The position numbers and the translations under genes are program-made. Below are positions 4,379 through 18,153 of a stretch of 52,476 nt of DNA, in pieces. A model generated the notes under the pieces. The model made no database searches and had not been told where the DNA came from. It worked only from the letters and a program-made list of their open reading frames with translations. This DNA is from a bacterium. GTDB taxonomy: Bacteria; Sysuimicrobiota; Sysuimicrobiia; Sysuimicrobiales; Segetimicrobiaceae. The DNA lies in the NCBI GenBank assembly GCA_035703895.1, contig DASSXJ010000104.1, positions 1 to 52,476 on the forward strand. Direction: 5' to 3'. The stretch's first letter is position 1. Every line of letters begins with the position of its first letter.

Positions 4379-4583
4379 GTAGTTCCGATTCTCCGACGTC
4401 GGACCCGATTTCTATCAGCATCGGGCGGCTCCTTCATTCGATCGAATATTTCCGAAAGTCCATAGCTCCGCCGCCCTCCGAGTTGAATGTGTGATACGGT
4501 GGAGCGCAGAGTGTCTCTCCTTGAGCGGCGGTATCCGTACTTGGTAGGCTGTGGGCGGATCAGAATAGGTTTCTCCGCGAGGT

Positions 4584-5087
4584 TTGCGACGTGACATGGA
4601 ACTATTGGCGGCGAAAGTGACTGGCATCCGGCGGGCATTCGTCGTAGGTCTACTCGTGTGGTTGGTGGTGGGGACTGTGAAGATGTATCCTTCCTACCTC
4701 GCCTACTTCAATGAACTCGTTGGTGGACCGGGGAACGGGTACAAATACCTGAGCGCTTCGAATCTGGACTGGGGACAAGACTTGAAGGGTCTCAGCACCT
4801 ATCTCCACCGAAACGGCATCGCGAGGGTGAAGCTTGCGTATTTCGGAACGGACGATCCACGCAGGTACGCGATCAGCTATGAGCAACTGCTCCCCGGTCA
4901 ACCGACGACCGGAGATCTGGCAGTAAGCGTGACATCGCTCGTTGGTACGCACACCGGCTGCGAAAGAGCGTTTGAGTGGTTACGGGGGTATGAGCCGAGT
5001 GCGAAGATTGGCTATTCGATTTTCGTATACCATATTCCGGCGACCGCTAGCCTTCCACCGGCCGTACCGCTCCAAGAATGCAGATAA
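4584..5087 (+). CDS. C-terminal part of a GT39-type glycosyltransferase, encoded as a separate upstream gene
   Basis: This 167-residue product is the C-terminal part of a polytopic GT39/PMT-like glycosyltransferase. One membrane segment (about 18-35) is followed by the family's conserved YPSYLAYFNEL (35-45) and SNLDWGQDL (59-67) motifs and by the usual ending (KIGYSIFVYHIP). The N-terminal two thirds of such a protein is not upstream: an in-frame stop lies at 4566-4568 and no membrane-protein frame is seen in 4379-4583. It is instead in the next gene. TTG 4584 or ATG 4596 could be the start; neither has a strong ribosome site. It may be half of a two-piece enzyme or a remnant of a duplicated gene. 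Confidence 0.75.
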   Translation: MRRDMELLAAKVTGIRRAFVVGLLVWLVVGTVKMYPSYLAYFNELVGGPGNGYKYLSASNLDWGQDLKGLSTYLHRNGIARVKLAYFGTDDPRRYAISYEQLLPGQPTTGDLAVSVTSLVGTHTGCERAFEWLRGYEPSAKIGYSIFVYHIPATASLPPAVPLQECR

Positions 5088-6460
5088 CACGCTTTCCCCT
5101 ATTGGCAAGTTTTTCTCGTCGGCACGGCCAGTGTAGCGCGTCAGTTCAGTCAGCCAGAGGCCTCGGGCCGCGATGGCTGTACCCTGTAATCACGGCCGCA
5201 CTCATCGGCGCGTTTCTGCTACAGGCACTTTTGAGCATGAGATACATGTCTATGACGTACGACGAGCCCGTGTACATCGCCGCAGGCTACTCCTACTGGG
5301 AAACTCGCGATGACCGCATGAACGGCGAGCATCCGCCTATCCTCAAAATGCTGATCGCGCTTCCCCTCCTCTCCCTGGGCCTCACGGTTCCCACAGATGA
5401 CCCGTCCTGGCGGGAAGGGGGACAAGGCCCCTTCTCTCGGGCTTTTTTGTCCAGGCAGGGGGTCAATGTGGAACGCATCGTATTCCGATCAAGGCTCTCC
5501 ATCGTTTTCATTGGCTTCCTACTGGCGCTTTTTGTCCGGAAGTGGGCCGCAGAACTTTGGGGTGCAGAAGCCGGTCTGGCCGCGCTGCTGTTGTTTGTGT
5601 TCGAGCCCAATACGCTCGCTCATGCTAGGCTCGCAACCCTGGATCTCGGGCTGACCGCTTTCACGTTCATCTCGATGTTTTACGTATGGAAGTGGCTCAG
5701 GACCGGCCGGGTAATCTATGCGATTCTCGCAAGCGTGGCTCTCGGATTCTCGCTCCTGTCCAAGGAAGCCGCTCTCGCGTTCCTGCCGATCTTCCTCGGA
5801 CAATTTATCGTCGACGACGTTGCGGCCTCGCGAAACAGCCTTCCTCGGCATGTGCATCCCTTCAAGGGCTTCTTTCAAGTCCTCGCTGGCGCCGCGGTCG
5901 TTGTGAGTATGGTCTACGCGGTGGTGTTCCATTGGCACCCCCTACTCCATATCGGCGGTGAGCATCGGACCGTGGACAAGGTCCTGGCCCGGATACCAGG
6001 TCTCAGGGGTGCGGTGCAAACACAGGTCGTCGCCCTGGGTCAGCGCATATGGGTCCCGGACCTCGACAAGTACATCGAAGGACTACTCGACCAACGGAGG
6101 CACCTCATCCAAGGGCACGCGTCATTCCTGATGGGGCACCACGCGTTGCATGGATGGTGGTACTACTACCCAATCGCGTTCCTGATCAAGACTCCCCTCC
6201 CGATTTTGCTCCTCGTGATCATTCGGCTCGTCCTTCTCGCTGCGATTCCCATGGTTGATGGGGAATACATGATCGTATTCCCCATCATCGGCATGATGAT
6301 CCTGGCCTGTTTCGATACCGCTGATCTTGGGTTACGCCAGATCCTGCCGCTCTATCCCTTTCTCTTTATCTGGCTTAGTCGCGTTGTTGCGCTCGAACTG
6401 TTCGGGGCCCGAAGGCTGAAGATGCGGCCCGCGAGCGCGCCGATAGCGGTCGAGCGGTAA
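5078..6460 (+). CDS. N-terminal part of a GT39-type membrane glycosyltransferase, lacking the usual C-terminal domain
   Basis: Polytopic membrane protein of 460 residues with about ten hydrophobic segments. It carries N-terminal and central hallmarks of lipid-phosphate-sugar-dependent GT39-like enzymes: the acidic pair D62-E63 in TYDEPVY, EHPP (84-87), GWWYYYP (359-365) and QILPLYPFLF (421-430). In intact homologues LPxYPFLF is followed by one more helix and the YLAYFNEL/SNLDWGQDL domain; here the protein stops about 30 residues later. The missing domain is encoded by the preceding gene, which overlaps this ATG by 10 bases in another frame. No clear Shine-Dalgarno is visible, so translation may be coupled to that gene. 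Confidence 0.85.
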   Translation: MQITRFPLLASFSRRHGQCSASVQSARGLGPRWLYPVITAALIGAFLLQALLSMRYMSMTYDEPVYIAAGYSYWETRDDRMNGEHPPILKMLIALPLLSLGLTVPTDDPSWREGGQGPFSRAFLSRQGVNVERIVFRSRLSIVFIGFLLALFVRKWAAELWGAEAGLAALLLFVFEPNTLAHARLATLDLGLTAFTFISMFYVWKWLRTGRVIYAILASVALGFSLLSKEAALAFLPIFLGQFIVDDVAASRNSLPRHVHPFKGFFQVLAGAAVVVSMVYAVVFHWHPLLHIGGEHRTVDKVLARIPGLRGAVQTQVVALGQRIWVPDLDKYIEGLLDQRRHLIQGHASFLMGHHALHGWWYYYPIAFLIKTPLPILLLVIIRLVLLAAIPMVDGEYMIVFPIIGMMILACFDTADLGLRQILPLYPFLFIWLSRVVALELFGARRLKMRPASAPIAVER

Positions 6461-6584
6461 CCCGGCGCGGAGGATCATTCGGATCGTTCTAGCGGATGAA
6501 GGATTCGCAAATCCAGTATGAGAACGAGGGCCCTGCGGACGGTCGTCGACGCCCGGGGCCGCGTTTCATCGCGATGGGAGCGAC

Positions 6585-8177
6585 GTGGAGAGCGGCGCGC
6601 AAGACTGGAGATCGGGAGAGGCCACACAGGGACTACCGTCCCGTGAAGGGCACGGGACTCCTTTGGTTCGCTCGATTTCCACCGCGTCTTTCCTGGTCGG
6701 CATTCTCGCCATCGCGACGCTGCTTCGGGTCGCGCTTTTGGGCGACAAGAGTCTTAGTCTAGAAGAGATTTCCAGCATTTTCTCCACGCGGCTCGATTGG
6801 GGGTCGTTCTTTAAGGTCTTCGCGCCTCGAGAAGTGAACATGACCTTTTATTACGTCCTCCTGCGAGTCTGGCGTCTTGCCGGGGAGAACGAGGTCGTTA
6901 TCCGATCGCTGTCGGTCGCTGCTGGGGTGGCCACCATCCCCGTACTCTATCTTCTCGGACGGCGCCTGTTCGGACCACGCGTGGGTCTCGTGGCAGCTTT
7001 CCTCATCAGCATCAACTCGTACCATATCGAGTTTTCGCAATATGCCCGATCCTACAGCCTCCTTGCATTCCTGGCCACCCTCTCCTCGCTGCTGTTTGTG
7101 AACTGCCTCGAGCGGCCGTGCTGGGGAAACTGGCTCGGCTATCTCGTGGTCGGCGTCCTGGGCGTGTACAGTCACCTGTTTGCTGCATTCGTGCTATTGG
7201 CGCAGTGGGTCTCTCTCGTGTTCCTGCGCCTACGCGATGTCCCGTGGCGTGGATGGCTGATAAGCGCACTGTGCATGGTCCTTCTGCTCCTGCCTTTGGG
7301 GATCATCGCAATGCCGCGGACACCCACATGGGGGACCTGGGTCCCCGTTCCCAAGTTTCGCGACATTCCCTATGTGTATTTTGTGCTGACCGGCGAACGG
7401 GGAGGGCGGACCGGCATCCTGCTCGTGCTTTTCTATTGTATAGCCTGCGTGATCGCGCTCCTGGGTGCGCGTCGAGCACGCGCTTTTTCCGGGACTCTCC
7501 GGCCACTCTGGCGGTATGGCTTCCTGCTTACCTGGCTCTTTCTTCCGGTGCTTGCGGCGTTTGCCGTATCCCAGGTAAAATCCATCTTCTTCGCACACTA
7601 TATGATCATTTGCCTGCCTCCCCTCATGCTTCTCGCGGCGGTGGGTCTCGACGCGATGCCGAAGCGGGCTCTGATCGGAGGCTTGGTCATTGTGACGCTA
7701 TTATCATCACATCAGATCTACAAGTATTATGTGGACTATAATGGACATGAGGACTTCAGGGGCGCGACCCGCTACATCCTCTCCCACGTGAGGGCCGAGG
7801 ACGCTGTGGTAATCTTTGCGCCATATATCCAGAAATCGTTCGAGTACTATCGTGAGCGGTTCGAAGGCGCTTCGAAGCTCCCGCCGTTCACGATCCTTTC
7901 GATGGACACGCGGGTCCTACAACTCTGGCAACGGCTCAGGGACGCCGCGCGCGACGAGCCGGCTGATCCGCTGCCCAGCGGGACGGAGCCTCCGTCGCAC
8001 TATCATCGGGTCTGGCTCATGCTGAGCCACGATTGGGACAGGGAGCCCGGTGTGTTAACCGTCAGCCGATCGATTCAGGCCTCTTGGGCCCGCAAGTACT
8101 GCTCGGTCGCCGAAGAACGGTTCACTGACGTGCGGGTCCTGCTTTATGACACGCCCCGCAGCGGCGGCTGCCGATAG
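6585..8177 (+). CDS. GT39-type polytopic membrane glycosyltransferase
   Basis: Protein of 530 residues with many hydrophobic helices starting near residue 32 and a soluble C-terminal region (about 390-530). It resembles ArnT/PMT-like enzymes that use polyprenyl-phosphate sugars on the outer membrane face. Family members usually carry an Asp-Glu pair in the first extracytoplasmic loop (SLWxDE). Here that position reads SLSLEEIS (56-63), so the Asp is replaced by Glu. The region RSLSVAAGVATIPVLYLLGRR fits the second and third helices of the family. A GTG start is preceded by GGGAG. It lies 124 bases after the split glycosyltransferase pair and is probably co-transcribed with it. Confidence 0.82.
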   Translation: MESGAQDWRSGEATQGLPSREGHGTPLVRSISTASFLVGILAIATLLRVALLGDKSLSLEEISSIFSTRLDWGSFFKVFAPREVNMTFYYVLLRVWRLAGENEVVIRSLSVAAGVATIPVLYLLGRRLFGPRVGLVAAFLISINSYHIEFSQYARSYSLLAFLATLSSLLFVNCLERPCWGNWLGYLVVGVLGVYSHLFAAFVLLAQWVSLVFLRLRDVPWRGWLISALCMVLLLLPLGIIAMPRTPTWGTWVPVPKFRDIPYVYFVLTGERGGRTGILLVLFYCIACVIALLGARRARAFSGTLRPLWRYGFLLTWLFLPVLAAFAVSQVKSIFFAHYMIICLPPLMLLAAVGLDAMPKRALIGGLVIVTLLSSHQIYKYYVDYNGHEDFRGATRYILSHVRAEDAVVIFAPYIQKSFEYYRERFEGASKLPPFTILSMDTRVLQLWQRLRDAARDEPADPLPSGTEPPSHYHRVWLMLSHDWDREPGVLTVSRSIQASWARKYCSVAEERFTDVRVLLYDTPRSGGCR

Positions 8178-10802: not shown

Positions 10803-11816
10803 TCACCCTAGCCGGTGCATCCAGAACAGCGACACGGCGACCGTCGTCATGAACAGCGCGGCAACGATCACCGAGGTGAGCCCGCTCACCTCGGTCGGCT
10901 TTCGTTCCCACCCGATCGAGCGGCCGAGGCGTGTGTAGACCCGGCTGAGGTCCGCGGTGGACGAGACGCGCTGGTACGTCCCCCCTGTGACCTGGGCGAT
11001 TTCCTTGAGGGTCTCCTCGTCCAGCCGGACGAAGATGCTCCGTCCCCCGAGCTCGAGGAACGTCCCTTCCGGCGATCCCAGGCCCACAGTATACACCTTG
11101 ACGCGTTGCTGACGGGCGACGACCGCGGCATCCTCGGGAGGTGTCCCGCGGTTGCTCTGCCCGTCGCTCAAGAGGACCACCGTGGCGGGTGACAAGCGAT
11201 CGCTCGCGGGGGGCGGACCCAGGGGCGGCATGCCCGGCCCGGGCGAATTTTCCGGCCGCGCACGGCCGGGGAGTGCATACACGGCTTCCAGCAGGCCGTC
11301 ACCGATCGCCGTGGCAAACTCGAGCGACAGGCTGTTGATGGCCTGAATCACGCGATCATGGTCGTCGGTGGGCGGCGTCACGAGCGTGGCATACGAGCTG
11401 AACGACACCAGGCCGATCTTGGCCCTCTGCGGCAGCGCCCGCACAAACTGGACCGCTGCTTTCTTAGCGGCGTCGATCCGGTTCGGGACAACGTCATGGG
11501 CCATCATGCTCCGGCTCACGTCCATGCTGAGCATCACCACGGTCCGGTCGTCAGGGACCGGCACCGGCGCCATGGGACGCGCCGCGGTCAGAATCACCGC
11601 GCACAACGTCAGCAGATACAAGACGGCCGGCACATGCCTCCGCCATGGCTTACCAGCGGCGGCCGCCTGGGCGATCAGATCCACGCTCGAGTACTGGATG
11701 CGGACTCGGGAGGGGCGGCGCAGGATCCAGACATAGGCGGCAATCAGCACCGGCACGATCACGTAGAGGGCCAGGACCGCCGGCCAGAGGAACGTCACGG
11801 GAGCCTGCCCGTCCAT
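10803..11816 (-). CDS. BatA-like VWA-domain membrane protein (second copy)
   Basis: Protein of 337 residues: an N-terminal hydrophobic stretch, a second helix near residue 60, a von Willebrand factor A domain (about 90-300) and a C-terminal helix. The metal-site motif DxSxS is present as DVSRS, with the conserved threonine in FATAIGDG and LLSDGQSN later. This order is that of BatA/BatB proteins, which work with MoxR ATPases. It closely resembles the neighbour at 11795-12841, so the pair comes from tandem duplication. The ATG overlaps that gene by 22 bases; GTG at 11798 would remove the overlap. It is the last gene of a coupled run. Precise function unknown. Confidence 0.88.
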   Translation of the reverse strand: MDGQAPVTFLWPAVLALYVIVPVLIAAYVWILRRPSRVRIQYSSVDLIAQAAAAGKPWRRHVPAVLYLLTLCAVILTAARPMAPVPVPDDRTVVMLSMDVSRSMMAHDVVPNRIDAAKKAAVQFVRALPQRAKIGLVSFSSYATLVTPPTDDHDRVIQAINSLSLEFATAIGDGLLEAVYALPGRARPENSPGPGMPPLGPPPASDRLSPATVVLLSDGQSNRGTPPEDAAVVARQQRVKVYTVGLGSPEGTFLELGGRSIFVRLDEETLKEIAQVTGGTYQRVSSTADLSRVYTRLGRSIGWERKPTEVSGLTSVIVAALFMTTVAVSLFWMHRLG

Positions 11817-12841
11817 ACGAGTGATACCACCCCACCGATGAGGAGCAGGGCCCCCGCCGCACCCACGAACAGCGAGGAGACCTCAGTCTTTCGCTTCTCC
11901 CACCCCAGTACGCGCCCCAGGTCGCGGTAGACCTGCTTGAGCCCCTGCGACGCCGAGGCCATGAAGAACTTGCCATCCGTCACAGCAGCGATTTGTTGCA
12001 GCAGCGTGGGATCAAACGGGACGAACACCATCTGCCCTTGATAGTTAAAGACGCTCCCCCCCGGCGCCCCCAAGCCCACCGTGTAGATCTTCACCTTGAG
12101 CTGCTTTGCGAGCAGCGCCATCTTCACCGGATCCGCGGTACCGGCGTTCTGCCCGCCGTCACTGAGCAATATGATCGCCGCAGGCGAGAGATCCTCCCCT
12201 TGAGGGGGCGTGGGCGGCGGCGCGGGAGACCCAGGGGCCGGCGGGGTCCCAAATGGGGGTGGGCCGAATGGCCCGGGCCGGGCCTCGGGAAGATCAACCG
12301 CGCGCCCAGGGAGGGCCTTGAGCGCCACCAGAATCCCGTCCCCGATCGCCGTGGCTTCCTGAGGCTTGAGGGTGCCCACCGCCTGCTTCACGGCTTCGTG
12401 GTCGGGAGTCGGCGGAATATTGAGGGTCGCGTAGGTGCTGAACGACACCAACCCGATCTTGGGCCCTTGCGGAAACGAGTCCACGAACGTGCGGGCGGCG
12501 ACTTTGGCCGCTTCGAGACGGGTCGGATCGAGATCCGGCGCCATCATGCTCCCGCTGGTGTCGATGAGGAGCACGACGACGGCTTTGTTGACGGGCAGCG
12601 GGATGCTCATCACCGGCCGGCCGACCGCGCCCAGCAGCAAGGCAAGCGCGACGAAGTACAGCGCCATGCTGACGTGCCTCCGCAACCCTGGGAGCGATGT
12701 CGCCAACCGCTCATACAGGGACCGCTCGGCGAACCGATCGACCGCTCGACGCCGGGCTCGGCGCACGCCGAAAACGTACCACGCCACCAGCGCGGGCAGC
12801 AAGGCGAGCCCCCAAAGCATTAGTGGCCAGGTAAATTCCAC
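11795..12841 (-). CDS. BatA-like VWA-domain membrane protein (first copy)
   Basis: Protein of 348 residues with the BatA plan: an N-terminal membrane helix (FTWPLMLWGLALLPALVAW), a second helix near 60-80, a VWA domain with canonical metal motif DTSGS, TAIGDG and LLSDGGQN, a Pro-rich insert (PPAPGSPAPPPTPP) and a C-terminal helix. The VWA domain should face the periplasm or cell exterior and bind Mg2+ or a protein ligand. It starts at GTG behind GGAGG and overlaps the DUF58 gene by 22 bases. MoxR, DUF58 and VWA genes together form a widespread chaperone-like module; the client is unknown here. Confidence 0.88.
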   Translation of the reverse strand: MEFTWPLMLWGLALLPALVAWYVFGVRRARRRAVDRFAERSLYERLATSLPGLRRHVSMALYFVALALLLGAVGRPVMSIPLPVNKAVVVLLIDTSGSMMAPDLDPTRLEAAKVAARTFVDSFPQGPKIGLVSFSTYATLNIPPTPDHEAVKQAVGTLKPQEATAIGDGILVALKALPGRAVDLPEARPGPFGPPPFGTPPAPGSPAPPPTPPQGEDLSPAAIILLSDGGQNAGTADPVKMALLAKQLKVKIYTVGLGAPGGSVFNYQGQMVFVPFDPTLLQQIAAVTDGKFFMASASQGLKQVYRDLGRVLGWEKRKTEVSSLFVGAAGALLLIGGVVSLVWTGRLP

Positions 12842-13719
12842 CGGCGGCGCCTCCGAAACGTCACGAACTTCACGAGCGGATCGACGAGCGACCCCGCAGT
12901 CGAGAGCTGCAGCAGGTCGACCGTCGCCCTGCGGGTCATCTGGGCGAGCTCGTCGTCACGCGCGGCCACCAACTCGCGATACCGTCCGCGCACCTTGCGA
13001 TCCGAGGTGTCGACCCAGACTTGCTGTCCGGTCTCCGGATCTTGAAAGTAGACCCCGCCCACGTCCGGCAACTCCCGCTCACGGGGATCTTCGACCCGAA
13101 CGGCGATGACGTCGTGTCGCCTGCCGAGTTCGGCCAATTTCGCCTCCCACCCGCCTGGGGAGTGGAAGTCGGAGACCAGAAACACGAGCGATCGCCGGCG
13201 CAGCACGCGGTGAAGCTGATGCAACACGTCGCCGAGGTCCGTGCGTCCGCCCCCGACCACCGAGGGTTGCGAGGCCAGGGTGTGAACAACCCGCAGGGCT
13301 TGCTCGCGGCCGGTCCGCGGGGGGATGAACACCCGGCCCGCCTGGGTCGGGAATCCAATCGCCCCAACCTTGTCGCCATGGCGGGTGATGATGTACGCGG
13401 CCACCCCCGCAAAATCGATGGCGAGCTGCCGCTTGAACCGCTGCACCGTGCCGAAATCCATCGAGGGCGAGAGATCCACAAGCAGCCACGCAGTGAGTTC
13501 CTTCTCCTCACGATACTGGCGCACGTAGATTTCGTTCATCCGCGCCGTGACATTCCAATCGATGCGGCGGACTTCGTCCCCAGGTTGGTACGCCCGGACC
13601 TCGGCCAAGTCCAGGCTCGGGCCATAAAACACCCCCGAGTAATCCCCGAACAAGAAGCCGTCCAGGCGACGGACGATCTTAAACTCGAGGCGCCTCAAGA
13701 TTCGCTCGGGCGTCTCCAT
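12820..13719 (-). CDS. DUF58-domain protein of the MoxR module
   Basis: Protein of 299 residues. The DUF58 signature GDEVRRIDWNVTAR is at 47-60, followed by a VWA-like fold with DLSPS at 82-86. I place the start at the ATG at 13717-13719 because GGAG lies 7 bases upstream and the protein then begins METPERILRRLEF, as usual for DUF58 proteins. The open frame extends further, but that part only shadows the MoxR gene. It overlaps MoxR by 41 bases and the next VWA gene by 22 bases, so the four genes are translationally coupled. DUF58 proteins are thought to link MoxR ATPases to VWA membrane proteins. Confidence 0.9.
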   Translation of the reverse strand: METPERILRRLEFKIVRRLDGFLFGDYSGVFYGPSLDLAEVRAYQPGDEVRRIDWNVTARMNEIYVRQYREEKELTAWLLVDLSPSMDFGTVQRFKRQLAIDFAGVAAYIITRHGDKVGAIGFPTQAGRVFIPPRTGREQALRVVHTLASQPSVVGGGRTDLGDVLHQLHRVLRRRSLVFLVSDFHSPGGWEAKLAELGRRHDVIAVRVEDPRERELPDVGGVYFQDPETGQQVWVDTSDRKVRGRYRELVAARDDELAQMTRRATVDLLQLSTAGSLVDPLVKFVTFRRRRRWNLPGH

Positions 13720-14746
13720 AGGGGTCTCCAATGTGGACTTTCGGAACCGGAACCGCTTCAACCACACGCCGCAGAAGGATTTCCGGCGTGACCTCCTGAG
13801 CCAACGCTTCGTAGGACAGCAAGAACCGGTGCCGGAGCACCTCCGGGGCGAGGTCTCGGACGTCCTCGGGCATAGCATACTCCCGCCCACGGAGCAACGC
13901 GAGGGCCTTCGCGCCGATGATGAGGTTTAGCGAACCCCGCGGGCTACTCCCGTACGAGATGAACTTGGTCAGATCGCCCAGTCCAAACTCCTGCGGGCGG
14001 CGAGTGGCCGTCACGAGGCTCACGGCGTACTCATGCAGCTTCTGATCCACGTACACCGCTTCCGCGATCTTCTGAAGGTGGAGCAATTCCGAGGTCCCAA
14101 TGACCTTGGACACGGTCGGGGATTGTTCGGTGATCCGATCCACGACCGTCATCTCCTCGTGGAACGACGGATAGGAGATGACGACCTTGAACATGAAGCG
14201 GTCGACCTGCGCCTCGGGAAGCGGATACGTGCCCTCGCTTTCGATGGGGTTCTGCGTGGCCAGGACGAGGAACGGATCCGGCAGAGGGAACGTCTCCTTG
14301 CCAATCGTGACCTGCCGCTCCTGCATCGCCTCGAGGAGGGCAGATTGCACCTTGGCCGGCGCGCGGTTGATCTCGTCGGCGAGCACGAGGTTGGCGACCA
14401 CCGGCCCCAACTCTACCTCGAACGTCGAGCGCTGCTGGTTGTAGATCCGGGTCCCGATCAGGTCGGCGGGGACCAGGTCCGGCGTAAACTGAATGCGCCG
14501 GAACTGACAGTCCAGCACCTGCGCGGTCGTTTTGATCGCGAGGGTCTTGGCCAGACCCGGCACCCCCTCGATCAGGATGTGCCCGCGCGAGAGCAGGGCC
14601 ACCAGCATCCGCTCGAGCATCAAGTCCTGCCCGACGATGATCTTCTTGACCTCATAGAGGACCGTGCGCATCGTGCTGGCGGCCTGCGCAAAGGTCTCGG
14701 TGGGGTACCGCAGGACCCGCATTCGCGTGTTGGGCGGCTCGTTCAC
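13679..14746 (-). CDS. MoxR-family AAA+ ATPase
   Basis: AAA+ ATPase of about 355 residues, predicted to remodel or activate partner proteins in the cytosol. Walker A is GVPGLAKT (about 61-68), Walker B LVLADEIN (about 120-127), and a sensor-1-like segment is LATQNPIESEGTYPLPEAQ. The C-terminal lid domain follows to the end. The start is set at GTG 14744-14746 because AGGAGG is 8 bases upstream; the adjacent GTG at 14747-14749 is possible. It leads a MoxR-DUF58-VWA-VWA run and sits 58 bases after a PIG-L deacetylase gene on the same strand. Confidence 0.93.
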   Translation of the reverse strand: MNEPPNTRMRVLRYPTETFAQAASTMRTVLYEVKKIIVGQDLMLERMLVALLSRGHILIEGVPGLAKTLAIKTTAQVLDCQFRRIQFTPDLVPADLIGTRIYNQQRSTFEVELGPVVANLVLADEINRAPAKVQSALLEAMQERQVTIGKETFPLPDPFLVLATQNPIESEGTYPLPEAQVDRFMFKVVISYPSFHEEMTVVDRITEQSPTVSKVIGTSELLHLQKIAEAVYVDQKLHEYAVSLVTATRRPQEFGLGDLTKFISYGSSPRGSLNLIIGAKALALLRGREYAMPEDVRDLAPEVLRHRFLLSYEALAQEVTPEILLRRVVEAVPVPKVHIGDPYGDARANLEAPRV

Positions 14747-14804
14747 CACAGACTCCTCCTGGCTATAGTATCCTACGATTTCTATCAATGTCGCAACTCG
14801 AGAT

Positions 14805-16343
14805 CTAGTGTGTCAAACTTCTTGGGGCTCGCGCCGATTCCGCTGAATCCTCTCCGGGCGCCCACCGGGCCTGTCCGCCATGCGAGCGTTCGAGGTACAC
14901 GAGCGCCCACGGGCTGCGTTCCACCGGCGTCCTCAACGGTCCCATGGTCTCCACATGTACGAGAAGGCTCGTGGGGTTTCCCACGCCGGCCAGAGGCACG
15001 ACGATATTGATGCGGCGGCCAAAGCTGCGACCGACGGCCCCGGGCGGGAGAGGGAGATCCCGCGGCTGGGACTGCAGCGCGGTCAGCGCCCGCGGGGCCT
15101 GGAACTGCAGCCTGAGCCGTGCCATGTGCCCATCCCGGTAGAAGAGCGTCGCTACCACCCGGTATTGCGCTTCGCGGATCGCCGCGCGGAGGAGGCGAAC
15201 CGCGACGTAGAGCCGGGTCGAGTCCTGAGCGAAGCCGACGGTGTCCAGCTTGACGCTTCCCTCGGTGGCGCGGATCAATGAGCCCCCGGACATCCCCTTG
15301 ATCGCGGGCGGCAGGCGATCCCAGAACTCCGGCGTCGCGACGGGCAGGCTGTCGCCTTCGATCGCCAACGGAACACTCGAGGAATGCATGTCGAACAGCT
15401 CGTTTCGGCGAATAAAACTCAGCATATAGGCACGCAAGAGCTGCGTCTGGGTATGGTATTCGAGGATCGCCATCCGTTTGGCATCCTGATCGGTCTGATC
15501 GAGAGGGTATTCCGTCCATGCCGCTCCTGCGGCCAGGAGGCCGCCCGGTGGGACGAGGGGCAGATCGGGCGCGTACGCCTGGGGCACCGGCCACCGGGCG
15601 TGGTGAACGAGGTACGGCCACACCCGCACGGTCTTGGCCCAGGCGACGTCCTCGGCGCGGAGATGCTCGAGGGCGGCCATGACGAACGCGCCGGCCGCCC
15701 AGTGATCGCGATGCGTGTCCTCGGCGTGATGGCTCACGATAATCGTGGGACGCTCGCGGCGGAGCACACGCTCCACGTCCTCGAGCACGTGTTGGCCGCA
15801 ATATCCAACTCCGGGGCGGCCGGCCGGCGAATACGGAGAGCGATTGTGCCGGGTATACGGTGACGTATAGAGGTGATCGCAGGTCCAACCCGGCCCCCAC
15901 AGCACTGCGAGTCCCCGATCCGGGTACCCGAGAAACGTGAGCCGGTCGACCGAGAGTCCAATGCGAGCCGCCGCGGCGACACCTTCGCGCTGCCGCCGCT
16001 GGCCGTACTGGATGAACCGGTCCGGCGTGCTCAGGAGCGTGTGGAACCCAACGTCGACACCCTCGAGGTACCCGTCCCCGTTGGTGAAGAACACGATATG
16101 TACGCGCGCACCGGCCAGGACCGCGGCATGAATCAACCCGCCTGCCCCCAGGGCTTCGTCATCCGGGTGGGCGGCGAATACCACCACGGAATCACCTGCG
16201 GTTACGCGCTCGCGCGTCTCGGAAGTGGCGACAACAGGAGAACCCAGCGCGGCGTCGGGATGGGGTGCCCATCCGCTCCCCCGCCCTGGCGCGTACCAGG
16301 TGGCGACCGCAACCACGAGCAGCCCGGCCGCTACACCCCACAT
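14805..16343 (-). CDS. PIG-L (LmbE-like) deacetylase with membrane anchor and C-terminal extension
   Basis: Zinc-dependent N-deacetylase family protein of about 512 residues. A hydrophobic anchor or signal is at 3-17. The metal motif AHPDDE is at 58-63 and the second zinc motif SHHAEDTHRDH at 204-214, so the catalytic domain (about 50-300) looks intact and extracytoplasmic. A C-terminal region of roughly 200 residues is beta-rich and may bind carbohydrate. Likely substrates are N-acetyl sugars in a glycan, glycolipid or thiol precursor. The start at ATG 16341-16343 is my choice; GTG 16449-16451, behind GGAGGGGG, would add 36 basic residues. It is followed closely by the MoxR gene. Confidence 0.87.
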   Translation of the reverse strand: MWGVAAGLLVVAVATWYAPGRGSGWAPHPDAALGSPVVATSETRERVTAGDSVVVFAAHPDDEALGAGGLIHAAVLAGARVHIVFFTNGDGYLEGVDVGFHTLLSTPDRFIQYGQRRQREGVAAAARIGLSVDRLTFLGYPDRGLAVLWGPGWTCDHLYTSPYTRHNRSPYSPAGRPGVGYCGQHVLEDVERVLRRERPTIIVSHHAEDTHRDHWAAGAFVMAALEHLRAEDVAWAKTVRVWPYLVHHARWPVPQAYAPDLPLVPPGGLLAAGAAWTEYPLDQTDQDAKRMAILEYHTQTQLLRAYMLSFIRRNELFDMHSSSVPLAIEGDSLPVATPEFWDRLPPAIKGMSGGSLIRATEGSVKLDTVGFAQDSTRLYVAVRLLRAAIREAQYRVVATLFYRDGHMARLRLQFQAPRALTALQSQPRDLPLPPGAVGRSFGRRINIVVPLAGVGNPTSLLVHVETMGPLRTPVERSPWALVYLERSHGGQARWAPGEDSAESARAPRSLTH

Positions 16344-16479
16344 GCCTCTTCGTCTCGGCACCTGTGCCGCGAGGGCCCCCTTGCGACCCGCCCTCAGGAC
16401 GGCGGGCTCGATGAACGCTGATGCTTTAGGAGGTTCGCAGCCGGAGGCCACCCCCCCTCCCGCGCCCCGCGGGAGTCCT

Positions 16480-18153
16480 TCACCGAATCGTCGTCGTGAC
16501 CTTGGCCGCGGGCGTGACGGCCTGGCCGTCCACACCCACCTCGACGGCGGTGATGATGACTTTGATGCCGTACACCGGCGGTGACTCGGAGAACGTCGCC
16601 GACCAATTTCCGCTCTGATCGGCGGTCACGACCTGGGTCCCAAGGGTTCCAGTGAGCTGGAACAGCAGCACGGAGCCATCGTAGTCCGCCGTGACCTTCA
16701 CCCGCGCTCCCGGTCGAGCACGACCCGTAACTCTGAACGGGGTACCGATCGTGGCCCCTTCGGCGGGGCTGATAATCGTCGGGGCAATCGGGGGAGCGGG
16801 GACACCGGCCCTGATCTGCAGGTGCGTCGTAGCGGTCGCGGTAAACACTTCGCTATTGGAGGCCACCAGACGCACGGTCACTTCGGCGTCACGGACGACA
16901 TCGCCGGGTTGTACAGTGTAGCTGCCATAGTAGGTGCCGCGCTCGGCCGTGGACTCCACCATGGGCACCCCCGTCCGAAGCCCGCCGATCGAGAACGTGG
17001 CGCGGCCCCCCGGGGCTCCGGTGGCGACCACCTCGACGACGTCTCCGGCCCGGAGCTCACGGCCCGATGGCGTGACTGCCACCGAGGCCAGACCGGGGTT
17101 GCTTGCGGCGGCCTCTTGCCGAATCACCGCGGCCCAGATCTCGTTGGTCTCGGGATTCAACCGCAGCTGCACGACATCTCCAGGCCGGAGGGCGCCGGCC
17201 TCCACCGCCTTGCCATCCCGCATCACCCGCGCCGAGGGGTTCAGTCGATACGTGTCCCCATTCTCGAGCACGACGACCCCAGCATCGGTGATGGCGATGA
17301 TCCGCCCCGAGACTCCTCGGTACGTGGCCCGGATGGATTGGGCGATTCCGTCCCGATCCACCGTCATCTGTACCCGGTCGCCAGGGAGAATCGCCGACAA
17401 CGCTTCGGAGCCGCCCGTGTTGTCCGCAACGTTGACCCGGCTGATCGCCGTTGTGGTGACGACCCTGTAGCTCTGAACCGCTTTGTCGACGAGCACCTGG
17501 ATCTGGCCAATTTGGCCCGCGGAAGCCTCTGCCCTGACGCCGACGACGGTTCCGGTTACGGCGTTCGAGGAAGGTACCGGCGGCTGCGCCGTCGTGGGCG
17601 GATACGTCTGAGGCGGCGGTACGGTGGGCGTCGGCGGCTGCGCCACCGTGGGCGGATAGGTTTGGGACGGCGGTAAGACGGGCGCCGTTGGGCCGGACGC
17701 CGGCGCGCTGGCGATTTGCACGGTGGTACTGGTGGCGTCCCAGGAAACTTGTGCGCCAAGGGCCTGGCTGATGAAACGCAACGGCACCATCGTCCTCCCG
17801 TCCACCAGGAGCGCGGGCACGTCCATCAGCGTCGGTTGGCCGTTGATGGAGGCTTGGGTATCGCCGATGCGGAGGGAGATGCTCGTATCCCCGCGGGCCG
17901 CCAGCACCATCTGGGTCGCGGGATCCCAGGTCACGACGGCGCCGAGCCGGTTGAACACCCCTCGCAGCGGAACCAGCACGCGTCCTGCCGCGATCGCCGG
18001 TGGGACGTCGAGCGACACCAGTTGTCCATCAATGAACACCTTGACATAGGGGGCAGGCGCCACGGTTTGCGCTACGACGGCGCCGATCCCGTTGGCCACA
18101 AGCCCAAGGGTCAGCAGAAGACCGACGAATCGTGTCCGGTATGAGGAACGCAT
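16480..18153 (-). CDS. Secreted protein with copper amine oxidase N-terminal-like (stalk) domain
   Basis: Exported protein of 557 residues. A signal peptide (about 1-29, cleavage near AVVAQ) is followed by a stalk domain (about 34-150) with paired segments VLVPLRGVFNRLGA and TMVPLRFISQALGA. Next comes a Pro/Thr-rich linker (about 155-195) with two 18-residue repeats. The C-terminal half has beta-rich segments, one containing TVVGVRAEASAGQIGQI and a final Ig-like part (PTIISPAEGATIGTPF). No catalytic motif is seen, so it is probably structural or cell-envelope binding. GAGGTGG precedes the ATG. It is first in the - strand run leading to the PIG-L and MoxR genes. Confidence 0.87.
   Translation of the reverse strand: MRSSYRTRFVGLLLTLGLVANGIGAVVAQTVAPAPYVKVFIDGQLVSLDVPPAIAAGRVLVPLRGVFNRLGAVVTWDPATQMVLAARGDTSISLRIGDTQASINGQPTLMDVPALLVDGRTMVPLRFISQALGAQVSWDATSTTVQIASAPASGPTAPVLPPSQTYPPTVAQPPTPTVPPPQTYPPTTAQPPVPSSNAVTGTVVGVRAEASAGQIGQIQVLVDKAVQSYRVVTTTAISRVNVADNTGGSEALSAILPGDRVQMTVDRDGIAQSIRATYRGVSGRIIAITDAGVVVLENGDTYRLNPSARVMRDGKAVEAGALRPGDVVQLRLNPETNEIWAAVIRQEAAASNPGLASVAVTPSGRELRAGDVVEVVATGAPGGRATFSIGGLRTGVPMVESTAERGTYYGSYTVQPGDVVRDAEVTVRLVASNSEVFTATATTHLQIRAGVPAPPIAPTIISPAEGATIGTPFRVTGRARPGARVKVTADYDGSVLLFQLTGTLGTQVVTADQSGNWSATFSESPPVYGIKVIITAVEVGVDGQAVTPAAKVTTTIR
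17579..17680 (-). repeat. Two tandem 54-base in-frame coding repeats
   Basis: Copies begin at 17579 and 17633 (period 54 bases; the second is slightly shorter in its match). Each encodes an 18-residue Pro/Thr-rich unit containing QTYPPT and AQPP in the linker of the stalk-domain protein. The repeat keeps the frame, so linker length can change without harming the protein. Confidence 0.75.

Follow-up and report, generated by a model that had tools for sequence, protein, structure and literature searches.

Candidate two-chain GT-C glycosyltransferase with its C-terminal piece encoded ahead of its N-terminal piece

The C-terminal piece of a GT39-type glycosyltransferase is encoded ahead of its N-terminal piece in the window, i.e. 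the whole stretch of DNA analysed here (52,476 nucleotides, the whole of contig C104 in a 4.38 Mb assembly of 337 contigs). The two ORFs, located at 4584–5087 (167 aa, the C-piece) and 5078–6460 (460 aa, the N-piece), both lie on the plus strand in different frames and share a 10-base overlap at 5078–5087, as described in the initial annotation. We tentatively suggest that the two complement each other as halves of a single GT-C (GT39/PMT/ArnT-like) polyprenyl-phosphate-sugar transferase, the polyprenyl-phosphate sugar donor being proposed from the family only. The C-piece matches only the C-terminal ~140 residues of single-chain relatives of ~530–890 aa and the N-piece only the region preceding these, which confirms the C-before-N order read earlier from the DNA. 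In one such relative (G066:C68), both matches are collinear, in the normal order and 2 residues apart (N-piece residues 35–443, followed by C-piece residues 17–154). The same succession of N then C is observed in every one of the 63 homologous ORFs that match both pieces and, within a single chain, in all 98 distinct full-length members of a wider set, as expected from the claim that normal homologues carry the opposite order in one polypeptide. The single-chain GT39-type layout, with the N core before the C domain in one polypeptide, is thus absent from the window, where two ORFs stand in reversed order.

The N-piece comprises a GT-C membrane core with a catalytic-loop DE motif and passes the curated cut-off of the PMT-clan family PF02366 (37 bits versus 22.7, E=3.7e-9), whereas the match to PF13231 is borderline (26.0 versus 26.1). 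Its AlphaFold model is of moderate confidence (pLDDT 76.6, pTM 0.79) and retrieves OST, Pmt4 and ArnT with Foldseek (probability 1.00, E 2e-6 to 1e-3), indicating a GT-C_A fold; by sequence, the search for a solved close relative returned none (best E=0.019). The PF02366 match, the fold and the alignments to full-length relatives all agree with the earlier assignment to a GT39-type family. The C-piece, for which Pfam and NCBIfam searches gave no match, is up to 54% identical to the C-terminal region of proteins that match the 460-aa product over their N-part. It consists of a short basic N-terminal end, the last transmembrane helix of the enzyme (4632–4688, plus strand; C-piece residues 17–35) and a periplasmic domain bearing YLAYFNEL and SNLDWGQDL, the latter at 4758–4784 (plus strand) with D62, W63, G64 and Q65 present in 95–98% of the 55 relatives first aligned. 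Together, the two pieces span the full-length relative L008 (Pelotalea), for whose model Foldseek places ArnT first. According to the part of PMC7801869 that cites the ArnT structure, GT-C_A enzymes such as ArnT combine a membrane core with a C-terminal periplasmic domain. Indeed, ArnT (5EZM/5F15), PMT (PF02366) and GT39-type bacterial proteins share with the N-piece both the fold and the DE motif in the first periplasmic loop, but retain the C-terminal periplasmic domain attached within one chain, which contrasts with the two reversed ORFs of the window.

In the family alignment, the break between the pieces falls between the last two membrane helices, in a linker that is hydrophilic and variable. 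In the L008 model, this position maps to the loop between helices 374–394 and 399–416, the second of which is equivalent to the C-piece helix. Measured between the landmarks P427 of the N-piece and P36 of the C-piece, the two window tails add up to 69 residues, compared with a median of 40 (5–95%: 36–62) in the 98 intact members. The breakpoints are therefore complementary, as initially annotated, whereas the additional statement that there is almost no redundancy was slightly overstated, since the tails exceed the normal linker by ~29 residues of non-conserved sequence. Under a crude uniform model, two random breakpoints would both fall within a 40-aa linker with a chance of ~0.7%, and would lie 30 aa or less apart with a chance of ~11%. 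The last residues of the N-piece (447–460; 6416–6457, plus strand) form a non-homologous tail that is disordered in the model and coincides with a rise in local GC of up to 0.67, which fits a fused deletion junction; we consider it likely that this tail marks the 3′ deletion.

Neither half looks decayed, as judged from the sequence. With conserved positions defined from relatives that were selected for their similarity to the window, the N-piece keeps 59 of 69 and the C-piece 41 of 44, and in the wider set the corresponding values are 78% (member median 79%) and 93% (median 82%). All residues of the N-piece that are 100% invariant are present, namely D62, E63, R139, D189, K371 and R420, with the acidic pair D62-E63 of the first periplasmic loop encoded at 5261–5266 (plus strand). 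No stop or frameshift is found inside either piece, and the neighbouring genes of the island in which they lie are intact by length and domains. Complementary ORFs, a break within a loop and intactness of both products, i.e. the sequence characteristics of a naturally split membrane protein, are thus observed. Profiles of each part revealed no remnant of the lost parts in the first 12 kb, including the upstream spacer (4379–4583), which also lacks a sigma-70-like promoter match, and the downstream spacer (6461–6584). The sole other N-type match in this region is a separate GT-C gene at 6585–8177.

An origin from a tandem pair that lost its outer parts, as initially proposed, appears likely from the sequence, because members of this family often abut in tandem elsewhere (1-base overlap in L003, gap of 4 in L174 and of 25 in L171). 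The C-piece stop and N-piece start, with their 10-base overlap, look like such a gene-to-gene junction. The arrays at L003, L006, L171 and L174 contain two to four diverged GT39-type genes, many of them end to end, and N-part identity between members in L003 and L006 is 31–59%. No second full-length copy is present in the source genome, no convincing repeats that could drive the rearrangement were found, and a comparison of the C-piece head with the N-piece tail for shared linker sequence, as proof of duplication, gave no signal (p 0.22–0.40). Across the family, similarity to the N-piece and similarity to the C-piece vary together with a correlation of 0.36, compared with medians of 0.30 for intact members and 0.13 for mismatched pairs, of which 11% reach the same value. 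With a correlation near the intact level and trees that lack resolution, the sequences favour a common origin of both pieces about twofold; the trees of the N-piece and C-piece cannot place the two together, and so the pieces may instead derive from different paralogues. The same route, tandem duplication followed by outer loss to yield C before N, is described for circular permutation by duplication in saposin/swaposin and DNA methyltransferases (PMC3320104), although the classical product there is a single chain rather than two overlapping ORFs. Indeed, a circularly permuted single chain is not encoded here, as the C-piece ends with a stop codon at 5085–5087 and the N-piece is in another frame, with no slippery heptamer evident by eye.

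The explanation that accounts best for these observations, although we hold it with less than even confidence, is a functional split in which co-translated halves reassemble. In this scenario, both members of a tandem pair within a laterally variable glycan gene island would have been truncated, the upstream copy by loss of its 5′ part and the downstream copy by loss of its 3′ part. The two ORFs would most likely be co-translated now, or have been until recently, with the C-piece first and the N-piece starting at the 10-base overlap. Each chain would be inserted separately into the membrane, where hydropathy and models predict an N-in single-helix anchor with the periplasmic domain for the C-piece and, for the N-piece, an N-in/C-in core of ~11–12 helices that holds the catalytic DE loop. 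Packing of the last helix would then dock the C-piece onto the N-piece and rebuild an active enzyme. Such a two-chain enzyme is plausible from the models, because each half is topologically self-sufficient. By contrast, fusing the pieces in the order C-N would create an awkward topology, with a periplasmic C-terminal end joined to a cytoplasmic N-terminal start; the "natural permuted two-subunit" enzyme of the initial annotation is thus tenable as two chains, whereas "permuted" describes the gene order and not one permuted chain. A more elaborate version, in which complementary deletions of tandem paralogues created a coupled operon with the C-subunit first and possibly a hybrid enzyme of new specificity, appears possible but less likely than not.

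A break within a loop that yields two complementary membrane fragments is also seen in K. lactis Doa10, mitochondrial Cox2 and CcmF (PMC3464245, PMC5374615). Doa10 of K. lactis is a naturally split polytopic membrane protein that reassembles, its split being located in a cytosolic loop (PMC3464245). The function of these fragments has been shown or argued, whereas the window pair is known from sequence and models, and they arose by fission, which alone could not generate the reversed order observed here. If the halves work together, they would represent a natural GT-C split at the junction between the core and the C-terminal helix and domain, generated by rearrangement rather than fission. The junction would then count as a permissive site for splitting, of use in structure-function studies and periplasmic-domain swaps in glycoengineering, and the pair would imply that tandem glycosyltransferase arrays can generate two-chain hybrids. 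If the halves are not functional, they would provide a clean example of tandem-array decay. Our brief search of the open-access literature found no paper on a split GT-C enzyme.

A split at the same linker is present in L163 (G741:C61), where an N-only ORF (580–606 aa) is followed ~300 bp on by a C-only ORF (149 aa), i.e. in the normal order, and where the junction, unlike that of the window, lies within a 522-bp repeated segment. A segment of this length is present in two contigs of G741 (L179:2311-2832 and L180:15602-16121, 85% identical), where it extends from the end of an N-only ORF across the intergenic region into the first ~60 codons of a C-only ORF. It is bordered by abruptly changing sequence, reminiscent of a recombining cassette. 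In G685 and G741, C-pieces are also found on their own; G685, a single contig of 7.7 Mb, contains four C-only ORFs with no N-part within ~10 kb. These speak for the reading that the two window genes are independently useful proteins, with the C-piece acting alone and the N-piece being a complete small transferase, and in part supply what the initial annotation named as contrary evidence, i.e. homologues of either ORF that are complete on their own. We consider this reading very unlikely: the window genes are adjacent and complementary, and the only uncut N-only relative found is that of L163, where a C-piece follows. Moreover, the 41 of 44 conserved residues kept by the C-piece are spread over its entire length, as in the corresponding part of full-length enzymes, whereas the alignment of most C-only ORFs is confined to their first part. 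Apparent C-only matches in G194 and G621 and N-only matches in G099 and G102 were discarded, as their ends are cut by the contig or locus end. The single-helix ORFs of G685 and G741 (L160:3825-4343, L159:3720-4178, L161:3603-4310, L162:4175-4921 and L164:3818-4270) carry YPHQLAYFNELAGGPENG...SNLDWGQD with variable C-terminal ends, often neighbour exported proteins that have a C-terminal helix and basic end, and sometimes a DUF1573-like ORF, and possibly constitute a distinct small protein family.

The functional split is only slightly favoured over recent remnants, which are nearly as likely, namely two dead fragments that arose either through one rearrangement or because a tandem pair suffered two independent deletions, and that have not yet decayed. 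Against the split stand its unique arrangement, the over-long tails, the trees and the weak ribosome-binding sites: the C-piece starts at either TTG 4584 or ATG 4596, with a well-spaced Shine-Dalgarno sequence at neither, and none is found at ATG 5078 of the N-piece. In addition, codon adaptation is weak for the short C-piece (−0.04 bits per codon), whereas the N-piece (0.10) resembles its island neighbours. Decay would likewise fit a locus that occurs once, in a variable island of low GC that relatives lack, the GC-rich foreign tail, the start signals and the frameshifted or split family members found elsewhere (L019, L167 and L171), but two random deletions would rarely place both breakpoints in one linker, and the clean flanks, the preserved frames and the conserved residues also speak against it. 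A misjoin that swapped the pieces of a true N-C gene, or a binning error, appears rather unlikely: although the locus is known as a single copy from one fragmented assembly, it contains no ambiguous bases, no long repeat lies at the junctions to drive such a misjoin, and the C/N junction coincides with natural gene ends.

The same C-before-N order in other genomes, which the initial annotation proposed to search for, was encountered at none of the loci examined (1063 genome visits, repeats counted), and neither an orthologous locus with this arrangement in relatives nor a C-piece relative in other genomes of the same phylum was found; viral contigs and plasmids yielded nothing useful. The pieces reside in a glycan island (1–10.8 kb) of 56–61% GC, lower than its surroundings, which encodes a DegT aminotransferase (cut by the contig end), a GFO/IDH/MocA oxidoreductase, a GT2, a methyltransferase, the second GT-C gene and a UDP-sugar dehydrogenase. 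As a block, this island is absent from 11 family members, whose strong synteny begins at 10803 with the adjoining conserved MoxR/DUF58/BatA-type operon (10803–14788). Beyond it, a 371-aa ORF on the minus strand (14785–15900; codon-position GC 0.78/0.70/0.51, no Pfam match) overlaps a 576-aa ORF (14805–16535) in another frame and is probably spurious.
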